This document shows, one piece after another, positions 19,077 through 50,317 of a stretch of DNA of 64,000 bases. Numbering within the stretch: the first letter of the stretch is position 1; every line of letters begins with the position of its first letter. A program made the position numbers and the translations under genes. The DNA comes from Methylobacterium organophilum (GTDB lineage Bacteria > Pseudomonadota > Alphaproteobacteria > Rhizobiales > Beijerinckiaceae). The notes under the pieces were generated by a model. That model ran no database searches. It was given only the letters and a program-made list of their open reading frames with translations, and was not told where the DNA came from. The stretch is taken from assembly GCF_022179465.1 (NCBI RefSeq), contig NZ_BPQV01000001.1:496001-560000 (forward strand). Direction: 5' to 3'.

Positions 19077-20180
19077 CTAGATCACGACCGTGATCGCCCG
19101 CGCGGCCCGGGTCAGGCCCGTATAGAGCCAGCGGGCGCGGTGCTCGCGGAAGGCGTAGGATTCGTCGAAGAGGACGACCTTGTCCCATTGCGAGCCCTGG
19201 GCCTTGTGCACGGTGAGCGCGTAGCCGTAGGTGAACTCGTCGGTCTCCCGGCGCAGGTAGAGCGGGATCTCCTCCTCCGAGCCCTCGATCACCTGGCGCA
19301 GGACCTTGATGTCGACGGCGCGCTTGCGCAGGGCCGGGTCGTCGTCCGGCACCACGTCGAGGCGGATCGTGTCGGGCCGCGGCGGCGCGCGCAGGGCCTG
19401 CACCGTCCAGGTCGAGCCGTTGAGCAGGCCCTTGGTGCGGTCGTTCCTCAGGCAGACCAGCTTCTCGCCGATGGAGGGCATCGGGTCAGTATGGCCGGCG
19501 AGCTCCCGCAGGCGGTTGTTGTAGAGCCGGCGGGTGCGGTTGAGGCCCACCAGCACCTGGTCGCAATCGAGCACCTGGGCCGGGTCGATGTCCCGGCGGC
19601 GGATCACCCGGCTCTCGCCGTACGCGCCCACCTCCAGCCGGCCGCCCTCGCGGATGGTCATGGCCATGCGCACGATCGGATCGTCCTTGGCCTGCCGGTG
19701 CACGTCGGTGAGCATCACGTCCGGCTCGGCCTCGGTGAAGAAGCCCCCGCCGCGCACGGGGGGCAGCTGGGCCGGGTCGCCGAGCACCAGCACCGGCTTC
19801 TCGAAGGAGAGAAGGTCGTTGCCGAGATCGGCATCGACCATCGAGCATTCGTCGATGACGATGAGGTCGGCCTTGGCCGCCGGGCCGGAGCGGTTGAGGG
19901 TGAAGGTCGGGCCGCCCTCGTCCGCCTCCCGCGTGCGGTAGATCAGGCTGTGGATCGTGGCCGCGTCCGGGCAGCCGCGGGCGCGCATCACCGAGGCGGC
20001 CTTGCCGGTGAAGGCGCCGAACACCGTCGCGCCCTCGAAATCCTCGGCGATGCGGCGGGCCAACGTGGTCTTGCCGGTGCCGGCATAGCCGAACAGGCGG
20101 AAGACCTGCTCGCCGCCGCCCTTCATCCAGGCGGCGATGGCCTTCAGCGCCGCCTCCTGCTGGGGGGCGAAGCCGTCCAT
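19077..20180 (-). CDS. RecD-like ATP-dependent DNA helicase (SF1)
   Basis: 367-residue superfamily 1 helicase lacking RecD's accessory domains. Walker A is GYAGTGKTTLARR (about residues 31-43), motif Ia AFTGKAASVM, motif II VIDECSMVD, motif III GDPAQLPPV, and the C-terminal UvrD-C2 block YGYALTVHKAQGSQW then LYTGLTRA. Stand-alone proteins of this type are common in alphaproteobacteria and probably act in repair or recombination. Its ATG overlaps the TGA of hemF (TGATG), indicating coupled translation. Confidence 0.88.
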   Translation of the reverse strand: MDGFAPQQEAALKAIAAWMKGGGEQVFRLFGYAGTGKTTLARRIAEDFEGATVFGAFTGKAASVMRARGCPDAATIHSLIYRTREADEGGPTFTLNRSGPAAKADLIVIDECSMVDADLGNDLLSFEKPVLVLGDPAQLPPVRGGGFFTEAEPDVMLTDVHRQAKDDPIVRMAMTIREGGRLEVGAYGESRVIRRRDIDPAQVLDCDQVLVGLNRTRRLYNNRLRELAGHTDPMPSIGEKLVCLRNDRTKGLLNGSTWTVQALRAPPRPDTIRLDVVPDDDPALRKRAVDIKVLRQVIEGSEEEIPLYLRRETDEFTYGYALTVHKAQGSQWDKVVLFDESYAFREHRARWLYTGLTRAARAITVVI

Positions 20181-21133
20181 CACGGCCAGCGGACGGTCGG
20201 GGGCAGGGAGGACAGGATCGAGGCGACGTTGCCGCCGGTCTTCAGGCCGAAGATGGTGCCGCGGTCGTAGAGCAGATTGAACTCCACGTAGCGCCCGCGC
20301 CGCACCTGCTGCTCCAGCCGGTCGGCCTCCGTCCAGGCGGTGGCGAGGTTGCGCCAGACGATCTCGGGATAGGCCTTGAGGAAGGCCTCGCCCACGTCGC
20401 GGGTGAAGGCGAGGTCGGCATTCGGGTCGCCGGTCCAGTGATAGTCGTAGAAGATGCCGCCGATTCCCCGGGGCTCCTTGCGGTGCGGCAGGTAGAAGTA
20501 CTCGTCGCACCAAGCCTTGTAGAGCCCGTAATCGGCAGCCGGGGCATGGGCCTCGCAGGCCGCACGCATCGCCGCGTGGAAGATCTGCGTGTCCGCATCC
20601 TCCTGGTTGCGCCGGCGGTCGAGCACGGGGGTGAGGTCTGCCCCGCCGCCGAACCAGGTCTTGGTGGTGACGACGAAGCGGGTGTTCATGTGCACGGTGG
20701 GCACATGCGGGTTCCAGGGGTGGACGATCAGCGAGATGCCGGTGGCGAAGAAGCGCGGATCCTCCGCCGCGCCCGGCATCTGCGCCCGGAATTCGGGGGC
20801 GAACTCGCCGTGCACGGTGGAGATGTGCACCCCCGCCTTCTCGAAGACCCGGCCCTTCAGCATGGACATGACGCCGCCGCCCCCGGGTGCGCCGCTATGG
20901 TCGGTGCGCTCCCAGGGCGTCCTCACGAAGCTGCCCGCCTCCTTCGGCGCGTCCGGGTGGAACGGCCCGGCAGCCTGGTCCTCCAGGGTCTCCAGGGCGG
21001 TCACGATCCGGTCGCGCAGGGTCGCGAACCAGGAGGCAGCCTCGCTCTTCAGGGCCGCGAGATCATCCGCGGCGAGCGGCGCGACGTCGCCGAAGCGGGT
21101 CGCGTTGGGATGCGTCTTGGAAGGCTGCGTCAT
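20180..21133 (-). CDS. hemF: Oxygen-dependent coproporphyrinogen III oxidase HemF
   Basis: 317-residue cytoplasmic enzyme that decarboxylates coproporphyrinogen III to protoporphyrinogen IX using O2. Family motifs seen: [51 protein letters not shown], and [16 protein letters not shown] with [17 protein letters not shown] at the end. The ATG at 21133 begins [10 protein letters not shown]. First gene before the helicase. The AT-rich ParA island begins about 65 bp upstream of this start, so its native promoter may have been affected by the insertion. Confidence 0.95.
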
Positions 21134-21198
21134 GGCCCAGGCTTTCCCATCAAGGGGGGAGGCCGTCAATTCGAGATTGCCTCGAACGAGATCGGTCT

Positions 21199-22415
21199 AG
21201 GTGCTATATGATAATAGTCCTATTTTAACAATTTTGGCTTGAGATATATTCCTTCCGCCCTAAGATATTGCCCTAAAATTATGTAATGACACATTTTCTC
21301 AAAAACACAGCATCTGCAAACATATCTTATTCATTCACCAAAGGAGGAAAATAATGGCAAAATTTATCAGCATATTCAATAATAAAGGCGGAGTTGGAAA
21401 GACTACACTTACTTGGAATATAGCAGATACACTTGCTGAAAAAGGAAAGAGAGTTCTTTTAGTAGACTTCGATCCGCAATGCAATCTATCGATTGCGATG
21501 CTCGGCAGTGAAGCATTCAAGAATCTAGTTTCTGTTACAGCATCCACAAAAACTATTAGATCATTTCTACAAGGATATCTCCAAAATACTGGACCAGGTC
21601 CGATTACAGCACATACCGGCCCCCATACAAATTCAAATGTTAAACTTATAGCCGGAGATTTTTGGCTAAATGTTTATTCAGATGCACTAAGTGTTGGTAA
21701 TGACCTCTTAACAGGAAATGGAATTGCAAAATTCACCGCCCTAAGAACATTGGAGTCTAAACTCTCTGAAAAAGGCGAGAAATTTGATTACGTTATGATT
21801 GACCTTCCGCCATCGTTTGGCGGCTTGGTTAGATCTTCGCTATATTCCTCCGACTACTTATTAATACCTTGCACCTCTGACACTTTCAGTGAGTATTGCA
21901 TCGGATTAATATCTCAAATGCTTCCGCAATTCATCTCAGATTGGAATAATGGCCTGTCTCGATTCAGACAAAATAATTATGGATCTAAAGAGTATGATAA
22001 ATTTGGAAAGCTGAAATATGCGGGATGGATATTCAATGGGTATGATACAAGATCTGAAAAAATGCTCCGCGCAGATCAAGCGCACTATGAGCACATTAAA
22101 GCTGCAAATGAGCGCTTGGCCAAGGACCTCACTGAAAATATCAAAGAATATAATCCAGTGCTAAAAACAGACAATAATGATCTTAATATGGGCAAAGTTG
22201 AAGATATGAATGTATTAATACAGAACAGTCTCTGGCTAAATGTACCAGCATCAAAACTAGATCAACATTTACAAGTAAAGAATTTAAGTGGTGATAAGCA
22301 AAAATGGTCCGAAGCACAAATAACCCTCATTAAAAAGATCAGAAAACAAACAAATTCACTTGCAGTTAACATAATAAATAATCTATAAATATTTTTGATG
22401 GGCAATTTCCTTTAT
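21199..22415. other. AT-rich one-gene island
   Basis: Base composition changes abruptly from the roughly 70% GC of hemF to visibly AT-rich DNA (roughly 35-40% GC by eye) near 21199, and back at about 22416 at the trmL stop. The only gene inside is the ParA-type ATPase. No integrase, tRNA, transposase or obvious terminal inverted repeat marks the ends. Upstream of the gene there is a GCCCTAA direct repeat and AT-rich boxes that could serve as promoter, none decisive. Confidence 0.8.
21354..22388 (+). CDS. Orphan ParA/MinD-type AAA ATPase in a transferred AT-rich island
   Basis: 344-residue P-loop protein. The deviant Walker A FNNKGGVGKTTLTWNIADTL (from residue 8), the A' strand VLLVDFDPQCNLS and Walker B VMIDLPPSFG are those of ParA/Soj proteins. 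The C-terminal half (AGWIFNGYDTRSEKML onwards) is Lys/Asn-rich and unlike chromosomal ParA. It uses AT-rich codons (TTA, ATA, AGA) rare in all neighbours. Strong ribosome binding site AAAGGAGG before the ATG. There is no ParB or parS, so plasmid-type partition alone is unlikely; a cargo-positioning, regulatory or defence role is possible but unproven. Convergent with trmL. Confidence 0.85.
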   Translation: MAKFISIFNNKGGVGKTTLTWNIADTLAEKGKRVLLVDFDPQCNLSIAMLGSEAFKNLVSVTASTKTIRSFLQGYLQNTGPGPITAHTGPHTNSNVKLIAGDFWLNVYSDALSVGNDLLTGNGIAKFTALRTLESKLSEKGEKFDYVMIDLPPSFGGLVRSSLYSSDYLLIPCTSDTFSEYCIGLISQMLPQFISDWNNGLSRFRQNNYGSKEYDKFGKLKYAGWIFNGYDTRSEKMLRADQAHYEHIKAANERLAKDLTENIKEYNPVLKTDNNDLNMGKVEDMNVLIQNSLWLNVPASKLDQHLQVKNLSGDKQKWSEAQITLIKKIRKQTNSLAVNIINNL

Positions 22416-22417
22416 GC

Positions 22418-22870
22418 CTATCTCTGCTGCTGCCGCAGGGCCTCGCCCAGGATCATCGCCGCGCAGACCGCGACGTTGAGCGAGCGCATCCCTTCGCGGA
22501 TCGGCACGACCACGCGCGCGTCGGCCGCCGCATGCACCGCCTCGGGCACCCCGGCCGATTCGCGCCCGACCATCAGGCAATCCCCGTCCCGGAAGCCGAA
22601 GCCCGTATAGGACGACGAACCCTTGGTCGTGGCGAGCACCAGGCGGAGCCCGGCCCCGCGCCGCCACTCCTCGAAGGCCGCCCAGGAGCGGTGCCGGGTG
22701 ATGGCGACATGGTCGAGATAATCGAGCCCCGAGCGGCGCAGGTGCCGGTCGGACACATCGAAGCCCGCGGGCTCGATGATCTCGACGGCGATGCCTAGGC
22801 AGGCGGCCATGCGCAGCATGGTGCCGGTGTTCTGGGGAATGTCGGGCTGGTAGAGGGCGAGGCGCAGCAT
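22418..22870 (-). CDS. trmL: tRNA (cytidine(34)-2'-O)-methyltransferase TrmL
   Basis: SPOUT-class methyltransferase, 150 residues, that 2'-O-methylates the wobble base of certain tRNA-Leu. MLRLALYQPDIPQNTGTMLR, the knot region GDCLMVGRESAGVPE and VPIREGMRSLNVAVCAAMIL are diagnostic. The start is the ATG at 22870 (upstream codons do not match the family). The stop lies exactly at the edge of the AT-rich island, and the tail ALRQQQR is short, so the last residues may have been replaced at the junction. The fold core is intact. Confidence 0.92.
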   Translation of the reverse strand: MLRLALYQPDIPQNTGTMLRMAACLGIAVEIIEPAGFDVSDRHLRRSGLDYLDHVAITRHRSWAAFEEWRRGAGLRLVLATTKGSSSYTGFGFRDGDCLMVGRESAGVPEAVHAAADARVVVPIREGMRSLNVAVCAAMILGEALRQQQR

Positions 22871-23261
22871 CGCCTGGGGAATAGCGCGATCGGCGGCGCC
22901 GGAGGAGGGCTTCCTCCATCGGCCTCCGCCCGATCCGTCCCCGCTCCACGGCGCGGCGCAACCTTCACGCGGCTTGTGTTCGTGGCTCATGCCCAGCGCC
23001 GCCCGGATGCGCGCGAAGGCGTCGTCGGTCACCCTAAGTACCGAACAGCGATCGTGACTGTTTGACAGGGCGGGTCCCCGGGAGGCCTTGCTCTGGCGGC
23101 CAGGTCCATCGGGAGCGGGCAGCGGGACCAAAGCGCCTCTCGTCCCCATGCGCCGGGCGGGAGGCTCCGCGGCATCGTCCCCGGTTGGTCGGGGCGCGGA
23201 TCGACTTATGTGAAGGCGGGTCGCCCCCTGAGTCGCTCCCCCCGAGACACGTGTGGTCCCC
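22871..23261. other. Divergent intergenic region, trmL to ABC exporter
   Basis: 391 bp of GC-rich DNA with no gene I would support. A less GC-rich patch near 23035-23070 (CGTGACTGTTTGACAGGG) holds a possible TTGACA box. No repeat or hairpin stood out. Confidence 0.5.
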
Positions 23262-25145
23262 ATGTTCCTCGACTGGCTCGAGCGCCGCATCGACCCGTTC
23301 GCGCCCTTCGACGACCGGGCGATGCCACCCCGGACGGTGCTGGGCTTCGCCGCCTTCTACCTGCGGCCGATCCGCGGCGCCCTGCTGTTCCTGTTCCTGG
23401 TCGCGGTGGCCGCGGGTTCAGTGGAGGCCTCGCTCTACCTGCTGATGCGCTGGTTCATCGACCTGATGAACACCACCGACCGGACGCGCCTGCTCGCCGA
23501 GCACGGCACGGCCCTGGCGCTCGCCGCCGGCCTGCTGATCGTGGTGCGCCCCCTCACGATCTGGCTGCACGAGGTCGCCTCGAACCAGCTCGTGGTGCCG
23601 CAATCCACCAACCAGATCCGCTGGCGCACCCATCTCTACACGCTCGGCCACGCCCTCTCGTATTTCCAGGCGGATTTCGCCGGGCGGCTCGCCAACCGCG
23701 TGGTGCAGGTGGGCCCGGCGGTGCGCGAACTCGCGGTCGTGTTCATCGACACGCTGCTCTATGTGGCGATCTACGCCGTCACCGCGATCGGGCTGTTCTC
23801 CTTGATCTCGGGCTGGCTCGCCCTGCCGGTGCTGGTCTGGGTCGGGGCCTATGCGGCGCTCACGGCCTGGTTCGTGCCCCGCGCCCGCACGCGCTCGCAC
23901 AAGACCGCCGAGACCCGCTCGACCCTGATCGGCCGGGTGGTCGACACCTACACCAACATCCTCACCGTGAAGCTCTTCGCCCGCGACCGCGAGGAGCGCG
24001 CCGCCCTGCGCGACGCCCTGGAGACGCACAACCGGGCCTATCTCCACCAGTTCCGGCTGGTGACGCTGACCACGAGCCTGCTCGGCCTGCTCAACAGCCT
24101 GCTGATCCTCTCCACCGCCGCGGCCTGCCTGACGCTCTGGCAGCGGGAAGCCATGACCACGGGGGAGGCGGCGGCCGGCCTCGCCCTGATCCTGCGCCTG
24201 ATGGCGATGTCGGGCTGGGTGATGCAGACGATCCGCGGCGTGTTCGAGAATGTCGGCGTGATCCAGGAGAGCATGCAGACCATTGCCCGGCCGCACGCCC
24301 TGGTCGATGCGGAAGGGGCCGCCACGCTCCGGGTGAGCGGCGGCGAGATCCGCTTCGACAAGGTCGATTTCCATTACGGCCGAGGCGACGCCAGCATCAT
24401 CGAGAACCTCTCGTTCCGCATCCGGGCCGGCGAGAAGGTCGGGCTCGTGGGCGTCAGCGGCGCCGGCAAGACCACGATCACCGCCCTGCTCCTGCGCCTG
24501 CACGACCTCGAGGGCGGGCGCATCACCATCGACGGGCAGGACATCGCCGGCGTCAGTCAGGAATCCCTGCGCGGCGCCATCGCCATGGTCACGCAGGACA
24601 CCTCGCTGCTGCACCGCTCGATCCGCGACAACATCGCCTATGGCCGCCCCGACGCGACCGATGCCGAGATCGAGCGCGCGGCCCGGCTCGCCGAGGCCGA
24701 CGGCTTCATCCGCAGCCTCGTCGACCACCAGGGGCGGCGGGGCTACGAGGCGCATGTCGGCGAGCGCGGGGTGAAGCTCTCCGGCGGCCAGCGTCAGCGC
24801 ATCGCCATCGCCCGCGTGATCCTCAAGGACGCGCCGATCCTGATCCTGGACGAGGCCACCTCCGCCCTCGACAGCCAGGTGGAGGCGGCGATCCAGGACA
24901 GCCTCGACACGCTGATGCAGGGCAAGACCGTGCTCGCCATCGCCCACCGCCTCTCGACCATCGCGGCCCTCGACCGGCTGATCGTGATCGACCGTGGGCG
25001 GATCGTGGAGGAGGGCAGCCATGCCGAGCTGATCCGCCGGGGCGGGCTTTACGCCGCCCTGTGGCACCGGCAATCGGGGGGCTTTCTCGGCTCCGAAACC
25101 CCGGGCGAAGGCTTCGAGGCCGGCTCCGAGGCCGCCCCCTCGTAG
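23262..25145 (+). CDS. ABC exporter, fused membrane and ATP-binding domains (ABCB type)
   Basis: 627-residue half-transporter with a six-helix membrane domain (about residues 30-330) and a nucleotide-binding domain: Walker A GVSGAGKTT, Q-loop VTQDTSLLHRSI, signature LSGGQRQRIAIAR, Walker B ILILDEATSALD, H-loop IAHRLST. Such proteins export lipids, peptides or drugs as dimers; the substrate is unknown. The ATG at 23262 (MFLDWLERRIDPF) is preferred to the GTG nine bases earlier. The MATE gene follows after 32 bp, suggesting an export operon. Confidence 0.88.
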   Translation: MFLDWLERRIDPFAPFDDRAMPPRTVLGFAAFYLRPIRGALLFLFLVAVAAGSVEASLYLLMRWFIDLMNTTDRTRLLAEHGTALALAAGLLIVVRPLTIWLHEVASNQLVVPQSTNQIRWRTHLYTLGHALSYFQADFAGRLANRVVQVGPAVRELAVVFIDTLLYVAIYAVTAIGLFSLISGWLALPVLVWVGAYAALTAWFVPRARTRSHKTAETRSTLIGRVVDTYTNILTVKLFARDREERAALRDALETHNRAYLHQFRLVTLTTSLLGLLNSLLILSTAAACLTLWQREAMTTGEAAAGLALILRLMAMSGWVMQTIRGVFENVGVIQESMQTIARPHALVDAEGAATLRVSGGEIRFDKVDFHYGRGDASIIENLSFRIRAGEKVGLVGVSGAGKTTITALLLRLHDLEGGRITIDGQDIAGVSQESLRGAIAMVTQDTSLLHRSIRDNIAYGRPDATDAEIERAARLAEADGFIRSLVDHQGRRGYEAHVGERGVKLSGGQRQRIAIARVILKDAPILILDEATSALDSQVEAAIQDSLDTLMQGKTVLAIAHRLSTIAALDRLIVIDRGRIVEEGSHAELIRRGGLYAALWHRQSGGFLGSETPGEGFEAGSEAAPS

Positions 25146-46803: not shown

Positions 46804-47877
46804 TCAGCCGCGCCGGATCCGGGCGAGCATTCGCTCGACATGGGCCACCGGAGTCTGCGGCAGGATGCCGTGGCCGAGATTGAAGATGTGCGGCTTGCCC
46901 GCGACCGCCTCCAGGATTTCGTCCACCGCCCGGTCGAGGGCCTCGCCGCCGGCGATGAGGATGTCGGGATGGAGGTTGCCCTGGGTCACGGCACCGGCCG
47001 GCAGGGTCCGGCGAAGCTGGTCGAGGGCGATCGACCAGTCGACGCCGACGACATCCGCGCCGGTCTCGGCCAGGACGCGGGCATGGCCGTCGAGGCCGCT
47101 GCCGCGGGCAAAGACCACGATCTTGGCCTCGGGCCGTTCGGCCCGGATACCCTCGATCATCCGCCGGATCGGCGTGAAGGACCATTCGCTCAGGGCATCG
47201 CCCGCCATGCCGGTGGCGTCGGGCAGCATGCCGGCATGGGATTCGAAGATCTGGACGATGTCGGCACCGGCCTCGAACTGTTGAAGCAGATAGCGGGTCT
47301 GAACCGTGACCAGCCGATCGATCAGATCCTTGACGAGCGCCGGTTGCGTTGCCGCCAGGGTTCGCGCCGGCAGCTGGTCGGCGCTGCCGCCGCCATTGAT
47401 CATGTAGCTCGCCACGGTCCAGGGCGCGCCGCAGAAGCCGAACAGGGTGGTCTGCCGCGGCAGAGCAGCTCGGATCAGGCTCACCGCTTCGAAGACGGGT
47501 GCGAGATGTCCCAGCACGCCGGGATCCCCCGCATCGCGCAATTGTGCGAAGGCTTCACCGTCCCGGATCGGCTCGAGCTTCGGTCCTTCCCCTTCGACGA
47601 AGGTCACCGCCTGGCCAAGGGCATGAGGAACGACGAGAATGTCGGAGAACAGGATCGACGCATCGAAGCCGAAACGGCGGATCGGCTGCAGCGTCACTTC
47701 GGTGGCAAGCTTCGGAGTGTAGCAGAGATCGAGAAACGACCCGGCCTGGGCACGTGTCTGCCGATATTCTGGCAGGTAGCGACCAGCCTGACGCATGAGC
47801 CAGACCGGAGGTGCCACGAAGCTCTTTCCGGAGAGGACATCCAAGACGACTTTCTCGGATGAAGGGTTGCTCGTCAT
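46804..47877 (-). CDS. hemE: Uroporphyrinogen decarboxylase HemE
   Basis: 357-residue TIM-barrel enzyme that decarboxylates uroporphyrinogen III to coproporphyrinogen III. N-terminal VWLMRQAGRYLPEYR, FSDILVVPHALGQ, GFCGAPWTVASYMI and FNLGHGILPQTP are the expected blocks. First gene of hemE-hemJ. Its upstream region shows features of a replication origin; in Caulobacter the origin also lies beside hemE. Confidence 0.96.
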   Translation of the reverse strand: MTSNPSSEKVVLDVLSGKSFVAPPVWLMRQAGRYLPEYRQTRAQAGSFLDLCYTPKLATEVTLQPIRRFGFDASILFSDILVVPHALGQAVTFVEGEGPKLEPIRDGEAFAQLRDAGDPGVLGHLAPVFEAVSLIRAALPRQTTLFGFCGAPWTVASYMINGGGSADQLPARTLAATQPALVKDLIDRLVTVQTRYLLQQFEAGADIVQIFESHAGMLPDATGMAGDALSEWSFTPIRRMIEGIRAERPEAKIVVFARGSGLDGHARVLAETGADVVGVDWSIALDQLRRTLPAGAVTQGNLHPDILIAGGEALDRAVDEILEAVAGKPHIFNLGHGILPQTPVAHVERMLARIRRG

Positions 47878-48036
47878 CTTGAAAATAAAACCCTTCTTCC
47901 TGTCTTTACTTGGTTTTCTTCAGTTCAACTTGAAGGTGCTCGCCAACCGGATTCGAACACACCCCTATCTTACATAGAAAATGAGAGAATCGAGGTTTTT
48001 TTCTTTTTCTAGAGGCTGAGTCCTGCGGATCCAACG

Positions 48037-48045
48037 TTGTCCACA
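48037..48045 (+). promoter_or_regulatory. DnaA box
   Basis: TTGTCCACA, one mismatch to the consensus TTATCCACA, next to the AT-rich tract upstream of hemE. An inverted weaker copy (TGTGGACGA) is at 48211-48219. Confidence 0.6.
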
Positions 48046-48067
48046 GGATGCCCCCACTGCGTCGCGA

Positions 48068-48083
48068 TTAACCGGGCTTTAAC
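48068..48083. promoter_or_regulatory. CtrA-binding site TTAA-N7-TTAAC
   Basis: TTAACCGGGCTTTAAC is an exact TTAA-N7-TTAAC CtrA box, 23 bp from the DnaA box. In Caulobacter CtrA represses initiation by binding such sites in the origin and also controls the hemE-side promoter. TTAA is rare in this GC-rich sequence. Confidence 0.6.
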
Positions 48084-48588
48084 GGGTCCCGTCTAACTTT
48101 TCGATTCATGACGGGGTGACAGGTCCTTAGCGGGCCAAACACCACCGTGGCGCAGTCTCGTGCTGCGTTTTGCAAAGTGGCTCGTTCTCACGAAGCCGTC
48201 GGGACGCCGTTGTGGACGAATCGGTTTCCGATTCACAGCCCCGAGCCTGGTCTGCATCCGCTGTCCGAATCCATCCCCAAGCTGCCGATGCTTCCGAGAC
48301 CGTGATTCCGGTCGGGTCTCCGCCTTTCAAAGCGGCCATGAATCCCTCGCAGCCGATTGTTGCAAATGTCAAAATCGGCGAAAAAACGGATACGCTGTCA
48401 CCGTCGATGGTGGTTGGATCGTGATGAACGATCAAGTGATCTTCCGATCTCCGCGACATTTGACCGAATGCATTGTCGTCAGGCCGTAGGCGAGATGAGT
48501 AAGCGATGGGAAGGGCAAGGCCCAGAAATGAAAAAGACCACTCAGTCGAGCGGCCTTCTGAATTTTATCGTCGATATCTTAAAAACGG

Positions 48589-49569
48589 CTAGGAAATTTT
48601 CGACCTAATTCTTTGAAGGCCTGCCTCCGCCAGATTTAGATGTTCTTCTCTTGCCGTACAAAGGTAGTTGAGAACGCGCGCTCCGACGTTCTGAGCGAGC
48701 CAGTCCTGCGTCGAAGATCTGTCGTACGGCTTCAGCGAGATGCTCTCATCGTCGATCGCGTAGATCTTGTAGCCGTACTCATCAAGGATTGCATGGCAGG
48801 CAGCGAATTTTTCGGCACCTTGGATTTCGAGGAAGAGCGTCGGAAGCCCCCGGAGCGTATTTCTTGCTCCGGCGAGCACGATGTCCTCCAAGCCCTCCAC
48901 GTCGATCTTCAGCAAATCCGGATCAAGGATTCCTTGCTGTGTCAGGATCACGTCGAGAGGGGCCGCCGTCACCACTTCCGTCCTGACCGCGACATCGGCG
49001 GCGTTCTCGCTGTACCCTGCGAGAGAGGCGCCGGTATCAAGCACGTCCGGTCCCCAGGCGACCCGCAGCGTTAACGTACCCACTGCGTTCGACACTGCGA
49101 AAGGGCATACCTTGAGTTTCGGATAACAGCCATTGGCGACGAGGTTGGTGAACAGCCGCGCCCGCGTCGCCGGGTTAGGCTCTACCGCCAGAACGGTGGC
49201 TTTCGGAGCGGCGAGCTGGGCTAGGATCCCGTAGAGGCCGGTGAAGGCGCCGACATCCGCCACGGCTTTCGCGGTGCGCGCGATCTTGAGCCAAGCCGCC
49301 ACGCTCGCGGCCTCATAGCTGTCGGGGCCGTAGGCATGGTAGACCATGGCCACGCCATCATCATTGGTCGATAGCATCGTAAAATCGATGTGATCGACAG
49401 AGCAGGCTACCCAACCAAAGTATGGGCGCTCTGCTCTGAACCTATGACCATCGACATCGTGCTGGCTTGCTGGTCGATATTGATAGCCCGGCTGCCGCCA
49501 TGGTCTCGCAGCCAACGAGGCATCGTTCAGCGAATTGAGCCACCCGGCTCGCGTCCCATCGAGATGCAT
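48589..49569 (-). CDS. FkbM-family SAM-dependent methyltransferase
   Basis: About 326 residues. A 110-residue N-terminal region of unknown fold precedes the FkbM domain: VADVGAFTGLYGILAQLAAP (motif I), VLAVEPNPATRARLFTNLVANG, DLLKIDVEGLEDIVLAGA and LFLEIQG. Such enzymes O-methylate sugars or polyketides, often in glycan or accessory loci. GC content is visibly lower than in surrounding core genes. The start is uncertain: ATG at 49569 or TTG at 49626. It lies between the origin-like region and an integrase remnant, so it may be island cargo. Confidence 0.75.
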   Translation of the reverse strand: MHLDGTRAGWLNSLNDASLAARPWRQPGYQYRPASQHDVDGHRFRAERPYFGWVACSVDHIDFTMLSTNDDGVAMVYHAYGPDSYEAASVAAWLKIARTAKAVADVGAFTGLYGILAQLAAPKATVLAVEPNPATRARLFTNLVANGCYPKLKVCPFAVSNAVGTLTLRVAWGPDVLDTGASLAGYSENAADVAVRTEVVTAAPLDVILTQQGILDPDLLKIDVEGLEDIVLAGARNTLRGLPTLFLEIQGAEKFAACHAILDEYGYKIYAIDDESISLKPYDRSSTQDWLAQNVGARVLNYLCTAREEHLNLAEAGLQRIRSKIS

Positions 49570-49871
49570 CCCATGCCCCGCTCTTGCGTCGAGGCACCAA
49601 TAAATCAGAGGTAGTTGTCGTATCAAGACATCAATTTAAGATTGCATCCCGCTTACGAGACGCCCAAAGCACACATCGGATTGCCGGAGCGCTATCGCAA
49701 TCCGGGCCGCACCCGCCTCACCAGGTGCCGGTTCACGACCCGGGACTGGCTGTCGCTCGCCGGTATCCCGATCGTGATGCTCGGCGTGATCGCGCACACC
49801 ATTGACCAGCCGGTCGGGTAGCTGCCGTAACGATTTATGCCCAAGCGGTCGGCACCTCGGCGACCTCCATC

Positions 49872-50171
49872 GTGTCGCGGGGTGAGCGCATCTCGAACTT
49901 CGTCGACTACCTGCAGGCGCATTCCAGCTCGGCCCGGGCCGGCACGACAGTGCCACGGCCCCAGCGTGCGTTGCAGACGTCCAGCGCCGCCATCACCCCG
50001 CACACCCTGCGGGCACACCGCAGCGACATGGCTCATGCTCAACGGGACCGACCTGTGGGGAGCCGCCGGTTATCTCGGCACGACCACGAGACGCTCGAGC
50101 ATGTCTACGGCCATCACCACCCGGACCACCAGAAGCAGGCCGCGGCGAACATCGTGCGGAAGATCGGATGA
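49872..50171 (+). pseudogene. Frameshifted tyrosine recombinase (integrase) C-terminal remnant
   Basis: The C-terminal catalytic part of a phage-type integrase can be read only by changing frame twice: ITPHTLR, then HTAATWLMLNGTDLWGAAGY after one extra base at 50011-50013, then GAG ACG-coded ETLEHVYGHHHPDHQKQAAA after a missing base near 50087. The box II His/Arg and the Tyr of VYGHH are recognisable. The N-terminal part is absent or unrecognisable. It ends 72 bp before the 3' end of tRNA-Pro, a typical integration site. Confidence 0.75.
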
Positions 50172-50243
50172 AGCCCGGTCCACGCTTAGAGCAAGGGCGC
50201 TTGGCTTAAACGGCAAGTATCGAGAAGATCTCGGGAATCTTGG

Positions 50244-50317
50244 TCGGAGTGGCAGGATTTGAACCTGCGACCCCCACGTCCCGAACGTGGTGCGCTACCA
50301 GACTGCGCTACACTCCG
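50244..50317 (-). tRNA. tRNA-Pro (anticodon CGG)
   Basis: Full cloverleaf on the minus strand: acceptor stem CGGAGTG/CACTCCG, anticodon arm CCACG-TTCGGGA-CGTGG, T-arm GCAGG-TTCAAAT-CCTGC and discriminator A. The anticodon CGG reads CCG. No CCA is encoded. The neighbouring integrase remnant points to use as an integration site. Confidence 0.97.

Follow-up and report, generated by a model that had tools for sequence, protein, structure and literature searches.

An AT-rich single-gene island of Methylobacterium organophilum carries a ParA-type ATPase of an orphan family found on mobile elements

Introduction

Why does a single gene for a ParA-type ATPase lie alone on a small piece of foreign-looking DNA, and what could its product do there? 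This question is raised by an AT-rich island (positions 21199..22415) between the genes hemF and trmL of Methylobacterium organophilum, which is located in the stretch of 64,000 nucleotides analysed here (referred to as the window; positions are those of the window). A first-pass annotation, made from the letters alone, had described the island as a mobile module with an orphan ParA. ParA proteins are commonly viewed as one half of a machinery for DNA segregation. The island is a genuine feature that goes beyond chance, and its gene is a member of a coherent family of orphan ParA proteins. The island is best explained as an acquired cargo unit of one gene, and its product, as far as the sequence allows a prediction, as a ParA-type ATPase that looks complete and active, comes from a distinct orphan family and probably has no dedicated ParB. 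As this family travels alone, keeps its ATP site invariant and experiences purifying selection, its task is probably self-contained, and possibly directed against other mobile DNA.

Composition and boundaries of the island

The guanine plus cytosine (GC) content of the island is 0.360, in comparison to a mean of 0.707 (standard deviation 0.037, minimum 0.535) in 1,204 other segments of 1,217 bases, which overlapped and were taken in steps of 50 across the 64 kb. The only gene of the island is an open reading frame (ORF) for the ParA-type ATPase, with 344 amino acids plus stop (21354..22388, forward strand). It is preceded by the ribosome binding site AAAGGAGG (21340..21347, forward strand), 6 nt before the ATG, and its GC content at third codon positions is 0.305 vs 0.92 in hemF, 0.91 in trmL and 0.95 in the next gene. 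The sharp drop in GC, the strong ribosome binding site and the foreign codon use reported in the first-pass annotation were all confirmed, as was the return to native composition at the trmL stop (22418).

On the left side, the composition drops from about 21175-21200 onwards. The block upstream of hemF (GAATTGACGG...GGGAAAGCCT) is uninterrupted and common to all eight relatives compared, and the foreign DNA therefore starts beyond this block, at about the position of the drop. The C-terminal residues encoded by trmL are unlike those of 14 relatives, which also disagree among each other. The left flank, hemF (20180..21133, reverse strand), encodes coproporphyrinogen III oxidase (Pfam PF01218, expectation value (E) 4.4e-87); the gene of the right flank (22418..22870, reverse strand) was named trmL after its SpoU methylase domain (Pfam PF00588, E 5.6e-30).

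The 5' noncoding part of the island (21199..21353, forward strand, 32% GC) presumably contains the promoter of the gene, and an AT-rich 3' tail (22389..22417, forward strand, 31% GC) extends up to the trmL stop. A promoter scan was not clearly above shuffled sequences (7 promoter-like sites vs 4.4 ± 2.0), and two terminator-like sites were obtained vs 0.9 ± 0.8 in shuffles. The region from 20000 to 24000 had no match in Rfam, and the 5' region of the island showed no similarity to the upstream regions of other alphaproteobacterial copies of the gene. As already noted from the letters, the island contains neither an integrase nor a ParB gene nor a tRNA; the single tRNA of the window lies at 50241-50317 (ARAGORN). 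No strong terminal repeats bound the island, and no strong repeats were found inside it.

Sequence and predicted structure of the ATPase

The protein matches the Pfam family AAA_31 with E 1.2e-31 (110.5 bits vs a cut-off of 27). In an alignment of 30 family members, the ATP site is invariant, in agreement with the intact Walker motifs of the ParA/Soj-like gene described before. This concerns the deviant Walker A motif FNNKGGVGK (residues 8-16, 21375..21401) with the signature residues Lys11 and Lys16, the A' motif DFDPQCNLS (residues 38-46, 21465..21491), and the Walker B region DLPPSF (residues 150-155, 21801..21818), all on the forward strand. Accordingly, the key residues of the ParA/Soj superfamily (K11, K16, D38, D40 and D150) are the same in all rows, and in the Walker B region P152, P153, S154 and F155 are invariant beside D150. 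The cysteines C43, C173 and C182 are likewise invariant in this alignment.

A divergent, Lys/Asn-rich C-terminal half had also been claimed. The enrichment is present, as lysine and asparagine make up 20.9% of this half vs 9-17% in ten relatives. The half is not divergent, since 27 of its columns are invariant (among them W197, G200, R203, G224, W225, N228, D231, D241, E283, D284, N286, S292 and P298), and it is therefore conserved and typical of the family rather than foreign. An AlphaFold2 model (pLDDT 93.8) shows the complete Soj/ParA fold across the whole chain, and the structure-search matches listed include Soj, 3pg5, McdA, MinD, FleN, NifH and similar folds. A viral structure library gave weak matches only, which were not used.

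No cut-off of the NCBIfam equivalogs (MinD, BcsQ, SopA, RepA, VirC1, PrgP) was reached among the best 25 of 34 families; the top score was that of ParA_partition, with 76 bits vs a cut-off of 180. A duplicate of the chromosomal Soj was considered as the origin of the gene and rejected, because the six other matches in the same genome are much weaker (E 2e-11 or worse) and because the tree groups the gene with those of other orders and phyla.

Distribution in the genus and at the hemF-trmL site

Matches at E ≤ 1e-20 were found in 6 of 112 Methylobacterium genomes, including that of M. organophilum itself (5.06 Mb in 113 contigs). A close full-length family protein occurs in two of them, namely the own genome and that of M. 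phyllostachyos (G034, 72% identity); the remaining four matches have identities of only 30-32%. The M. phyllostachyos copy occupies another site, beside a gene which was named comM-like by eye; a single Mg_chelatase protein among 129 neighbour proteins bears on this naming.

The DNA of trmL is present in 110 of the 112 genomes. When 29 relatives were fetched with flanks of 1.5 kb, hemF was visible in 7, with the matched ends 7-157 bases apart (for three loci read in reverse, the distance was taken from the printed coordinates); 20 relatives fetched with wider flanks showed hemF in 12, with an interval of 1.2-8.2 kb. Loci without hemF in view (22 of 29 and 8 of 20) were excluded from the counts. 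None of the 19 different relatives with both genes in view carries the ParA gene at this site. In the 12 relatives with the longer interval, this interval is mostly of native GC (46-81% in bins of 200 bases). It holds up to three mostly native-GC blocks of about 2.3, 3.5 and 1.8 kb in varying combinations (L092-L108; L numbers denote loci). That the ParA gene is ancestral to the locus can be rejected: the interval is variable in the genus, yet holds this gene in none of these relatives.

When the sampling was widened to 398 genomes of the phylum, only the own one had a family member (E ≤ 1e-40), and among 397 genomes of the order there were two, the own one and G578, whose copy carries an internal stop; both samples scored the best five candidates per genome, so that some copies could be missed.

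Family, phylogeny and selection

The collection of species genomes contained 43 related loci, of which 20 (L013-L032) encode proteins with 40-76% identity over most or all of the length; the other 23 are weaker and partial. Closer relatives than the M. phyllostachyos copy occur in Azospirillum and Rhizobium (75-76%). Furthermore, 11 viral contigs encode nearly full-length matches with 41-51% identity (two scans), and among plasmids 171 records reach E ≤ 1e-50, of which 151 come from Escherichia, Salmonella or Klebsiella. A DNA relative of the copy on a plasmid of 4.9 kb was detected in 116 of 5,426 E. coli genomes, with at least 80% of it in 97; these relatives were located at 36 chromosomal and 92 plasmid places, and some are fragments.

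The family appears in a tree of 51 rows as a single clade, which comprises 37 of them (SH-aLRT 100) and is set off by a branch of 3.07 changes per column. The clade interleaves Cyanobacteriota, Pseudomonadota and Myxococcota with rows from draft bins named Bacillota, Actinomycetota and Melainabacteria, phylum names that may be misassigned in the case of short contigs. The window copy clusters with those of Rhizobium, Azospirillum, M. phyllostachyos and Belnapia; the tree results from a quick search with several long outgroup branches and gives no branching order inside this alphaproteobacterial group. Its rows leave out L109 (internal stop) and L112 (protein same as L032). The near-duplicates L022 and L028 as well as L125 and L121, which have identical proteins, are not independent.

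Between the window copy and the four alphaproteobacterial copies, the nonsynonymous divergence (dN) is 0.18-0.25, and the synonymous divergence (dS) is saturated. In each of the 17 pairwise comparisons dN stayed below dS, and purifying selection therefore acts on the protein. The viral contigs L132-L190 contain several other families of long ParA proteins (about 326-372 amino acids) with FNNKGGVGKTT- or FNHKGGVSKTT-like signatures. They share 22-28% identity with the window protein (alignment A3, which leaves out L126, whose protein is the same as that of L125) and may be further orphan families.

Genomic context of the family members

In GC-rich hosts, the gene stands out as AT-rich DNA, with a GC content of 0.37 in the window and of 0.40-0.51 in L013-L017 and L032, whose flanks have 0.57-0.71; in AT-rich hosts there is no GC contrast between gene and flanks. 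On chromosomes, the copies of Belnapia and M. phyllostachyos each lie between two ordinary-looking genes, the Rhizobium copy follows a tRNA-Thr at a distance of 291 bases, and an integrase is located near the copies of Azospirillum and TGS_CYA1. In E. coli, the gene is cargo of an element at tRNA-Arg with an integrase and a replication gene (one such element is broken), and in P2-like prophages it lies between ogr and a VgrG/D-type tail gene. One of these prophages (L121:18652-19927) also encodes an annotated ParM and a plasmid partitioning/stability protein, between the portal and the replication endonuclease genes.

Beside the prophages, the family gene is carried by a P2-like phage (viral contig L125) and by the tailed phages L032, L110 and L124. 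L128 is probably a P4-like satellite, as a phage-type primase (E 3.6e-174) lies on the same contig, and L130, with a Zot-like assembly gene, is probably a filamentous phage. Plasmid carriers comprise an IncX1 backbone, the 4.9 kb MOBP plasmid, Aeromonas plasmids and an X. citri plasmid.

Among 239 neighbour proteins (own gene calls) of 28 loci, no partner gene recurred; the neighbours of different loci resembled each other only in two related prophages, in one near-duplicate pair and in the case of two integrases and two resolvases. Upstream similarity in the flanks of the 28 copies was restricted to L056/L058 (25 nt), L058/L118 (16 nt), the prophages L032/L110 and the near-duplicates; a parS consensus was not searched for. 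A shared regulatory or centromere motif was looked for in these flanks and by eye in 34 copies. Only one upstream block, which resembles TATAGGCTTGT...CTCA, recurs; it is located 40-93 bases or so ahead of the start in five gammaproteobacterial copies (L056, L058, L118, L119 and L125, from a plasmid, a satellite and a prophage background) and is possibly a shared promoter or operator.

The absence of a common neighbour or target operon bears on another possible role of the protein, that of a regulator or a positioning ATPase for some host process (like FleN, MinD, PpfA, PldP or McdA), with an advantage for lysogens or hosts that is unrelated to conflict. This is quite unlikely, considering also that the protein stays below the MinD and BcsQ equivalog cut-offs and that the family is spread among bacteria of very different cell biology. 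Defence, positioning and regulation, the three roles suggested at first, are indistinguishable by sequence, and the carriage by phages, satellites and plasmids favours a conflict between mobile elements.

The contexts likewise allow the island to be judged as a passive remnant, i.e. the one gene left over from a larger integrated element, which would have survived by chance and be functionless in the present host. The missing integrase and terminal repeats would fit such a remnant, as would the internal stop in G578, the Belnapia copy with its start out of frame in the sequence analysed and the fragments among the E. coli matches. The window copy itself is intact with a strong ribosome binding site, and in several genera the gene likewise stands alone at unrelated sites, which chance decay of larger elements would rarely yield, so that a remnant appears very unlikely.

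Search for partition partners

In the own genome, the sole match to the Pfam model ParB_N is located at C1:345676, 171 kb away and beside a soj-type match. Out of 17 plasmid and viral records carrying the gene (7 plasmid, 10 viral), 14 lack a ParB_N match, and in the remaining three the nearest one lies about 21.6, 25.6 and 75 kb from the family gene; the model is blind to ParG-type partners, and the viral records may be fragments. In 20 genomes of family members, 30 of 43 ParB_N matches were located, and none of these 30 overlaps the stretch fetched around the family gene. ParB was also absent from 20 neighbour proteins scanned with Pfam and from the best 25 of 154 Pfam families obtained with 129 neighbour ORFs. 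When 39 family loci were translated in six frames (4,231 ORFs), a self-built ParB profile gave no match. This profile is poor, as several of its training proteins were short or in the wrong frame and it recovered only 3 of 12 weaker ParB loci; the conclusion on ParB therefore rests on the Pfam model searches.

An adjacent centromere-binding partner (ParB or ParG), by which ParABS and type Ia/Ib systems are recognised, thus does not accompany the gene, with the exception of IncX1 plasmids, where a ParF-like/ParG pair lies 423 bases upstream. The family gene may therefore have a role together with this pair, and the earlier statement that plasmid partition does not explain the gene is likely, but not proven. 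Taken together, the gene is neither found at hemF-trmL throughout the genus nor always beside ParB on plasmids, and the idea of a mobile orphan module is therefore well supported.

These results bear directly on the main rival explanation, a role in stability or partition. The orphan ParA would be a maintenance gene which stabilises its carrier via a cryptic adaptor, a host ParB or the partition proteins of another element, and the chromosomal copies would be stranded remnants. The position behind the IncX1 pair suits this explanation, but IncX1 already owns that pair. Most carrier records lack a ParB_N match or have it far away, no partner recurs beside the gene, and integrated prophages, satellites and lone chromosomal copies offer no obvious replicon to partition. 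As the window copy is also intact and the family under purifying selection, we consider a maintenance function unlikely.

Defence genes in the neighbourhood

Several loci contain defence genes beside the family gene. In L028 it is adjoined by a CBASS cyclase (E 2.5e-115) and a 2TM effector (E 3.4e-70), and in L128 by a PDC-S06 defence ATPase (E 3.1e-284). L020 encodes an AAA ATPase resembling AriA/PtuA and L023 one resembling several defence AAA models, and a weak SduA match was obtained among the neighbours in L032. With Pfam, neighbours were assigned to HSDR_N (L025), to a RelA_SpoT domain (L029) and to a patatin domain (L017), and an Aeromonas plasmid carries annotated reverse transcriptase and AbiEii-type genes. 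With PADLOC, 129 neighbour ORFs (crude own gene calls) matched 232 families, the best 25 of which are mostly overlapping AAA models. The word "ParA" does not occur in the main texts of PMC9122126 and PMC9519451.

Proposed function

We tentatively propose that the protein is a self-sufficient orphan ParA which may act in trans against competing mobile DNA, in a way similar to ParI of Pseudomonas putida (see below); from the present analysis, this is nearly an even call. By analogy with the ParA family, ATP-bound dimers would coat DNA non-specifically. Such dimers, having no partner gene, would have to find their target in the host or in the invader. They could either occupy DNA or capture a partner of the incoming replicon, i.e. 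its partition or replication complex, and the establishment, segregation or replication of rival plasmids and phages would be blocked. The gene would spread because it protects the cell or the resident element carrying it, as ParI destabilises IncP-7 plasmids. That phages, satellites and plasmids all carry the gene agrees better with a weapon against rival mobile DNA than with a partition role. In a wider form, the family could represent phylum-crossing, one-gene immune ATPases on a ParA fold, which sense or coat incoming DNA, stop rivals without a partner and move singly; this extension is rather doubtful.

Several observations speak against an anti-mobile-element function. The window protein matched the models of PADLOC-DB 2.0.0 only around the P-loop (PDC-M28B with E 5.8e-8 over residues 5-40 and 1.3e-5 over residues 5-42; mad8 with E 0.021 over residues 13-73), and a known defence family was therefore rejected at sequence level. 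The defence neighbours were chosen by eye before scanning and have no control set, so that no enrichment is claimed; a PADLOC match at 1e-5 was obtained in 6 of 10 scanned neighbours (the one of L032 being weak) and in none of the other 4, and most loci have no recognised defence gene beside the family gene. The IncX1 pair and the two damaged-looking copies, G578 and Belnapia, belong here as well. Finally, the IncP-7 plasmid pCAR1 contains one match to the window protein, which covers residues 5-46 and is confined to the P-loop; the protein is therefore proposed to be ParI-like in principle, and not ParI itself.

In the open-licence literature searched, no description of single-gene mobility of an orphan ParA family between distant bacteria was found. 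Natural alleles on E. coli prophages, satellites and the 4.9 kb plasmid make the proposed function directly testable in E. coli K-12.

A second composition dip in the window

A second, weaker GC dip was observed at 47500-50300 (minimum 52-53% in 500-base windows), between a hemE-like ORF (46804-47877, reverse strand) and tRNA-Pro (50241-50317). It contains an ORF for an FkbM-like methyltransferase (48589-49626, reverse strand); the names hemE-like and FkbM-like were assigned by eye.

Comparison with known systems

The best sequence match in the PDB is 3pg5 (DIP2308, an uncharacterised ParA-like protein of Corynebacterium diphtheriae; E 1.1e-19 over residues 4-341, profile match 6.2e-26), which is also the top Foldseek match. 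The identity is only 20-26%, and the title of this structural-genomics entry names no function. From Soj/ParA of the chromosomal ParABS systems (8jmj, 2bek), the window protein differs by 80-90 extra residues and by the lack of a ParB found alongside; Soj is not among the rows of the 51-row tree, which gives no distance to the Soj family. Residues 1-265 match PHROG 164, a phage "ParA-like partition protein" (E 1.8e-42). In contrast to the family described here, this is a broad phage family named by annotation, and the last 79 residues lie outside the match.

The closest functional analogue is probably ParI of P. putida KT2440. ParI is reported to be an orphan ParA encoded on a genomic island which disturbs the partition of IncP-7 plasmids; it is induced by the plasmid pCAR1, impairs the partition of pCAR1 and requires its Walker A motif (PMC9178275, PMC8544851). 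Like ParI, which is described without ParB or parS, the gene of the window is a horizontally acquired chromosomal orphan ParA. Unlike ParI, the window family spans phages, satellites, plasmids and several phyla. If its members indeed block other mobile DNA, the single case of ParI would be generalised, and the ParA fold would be added to bacterial immunity.
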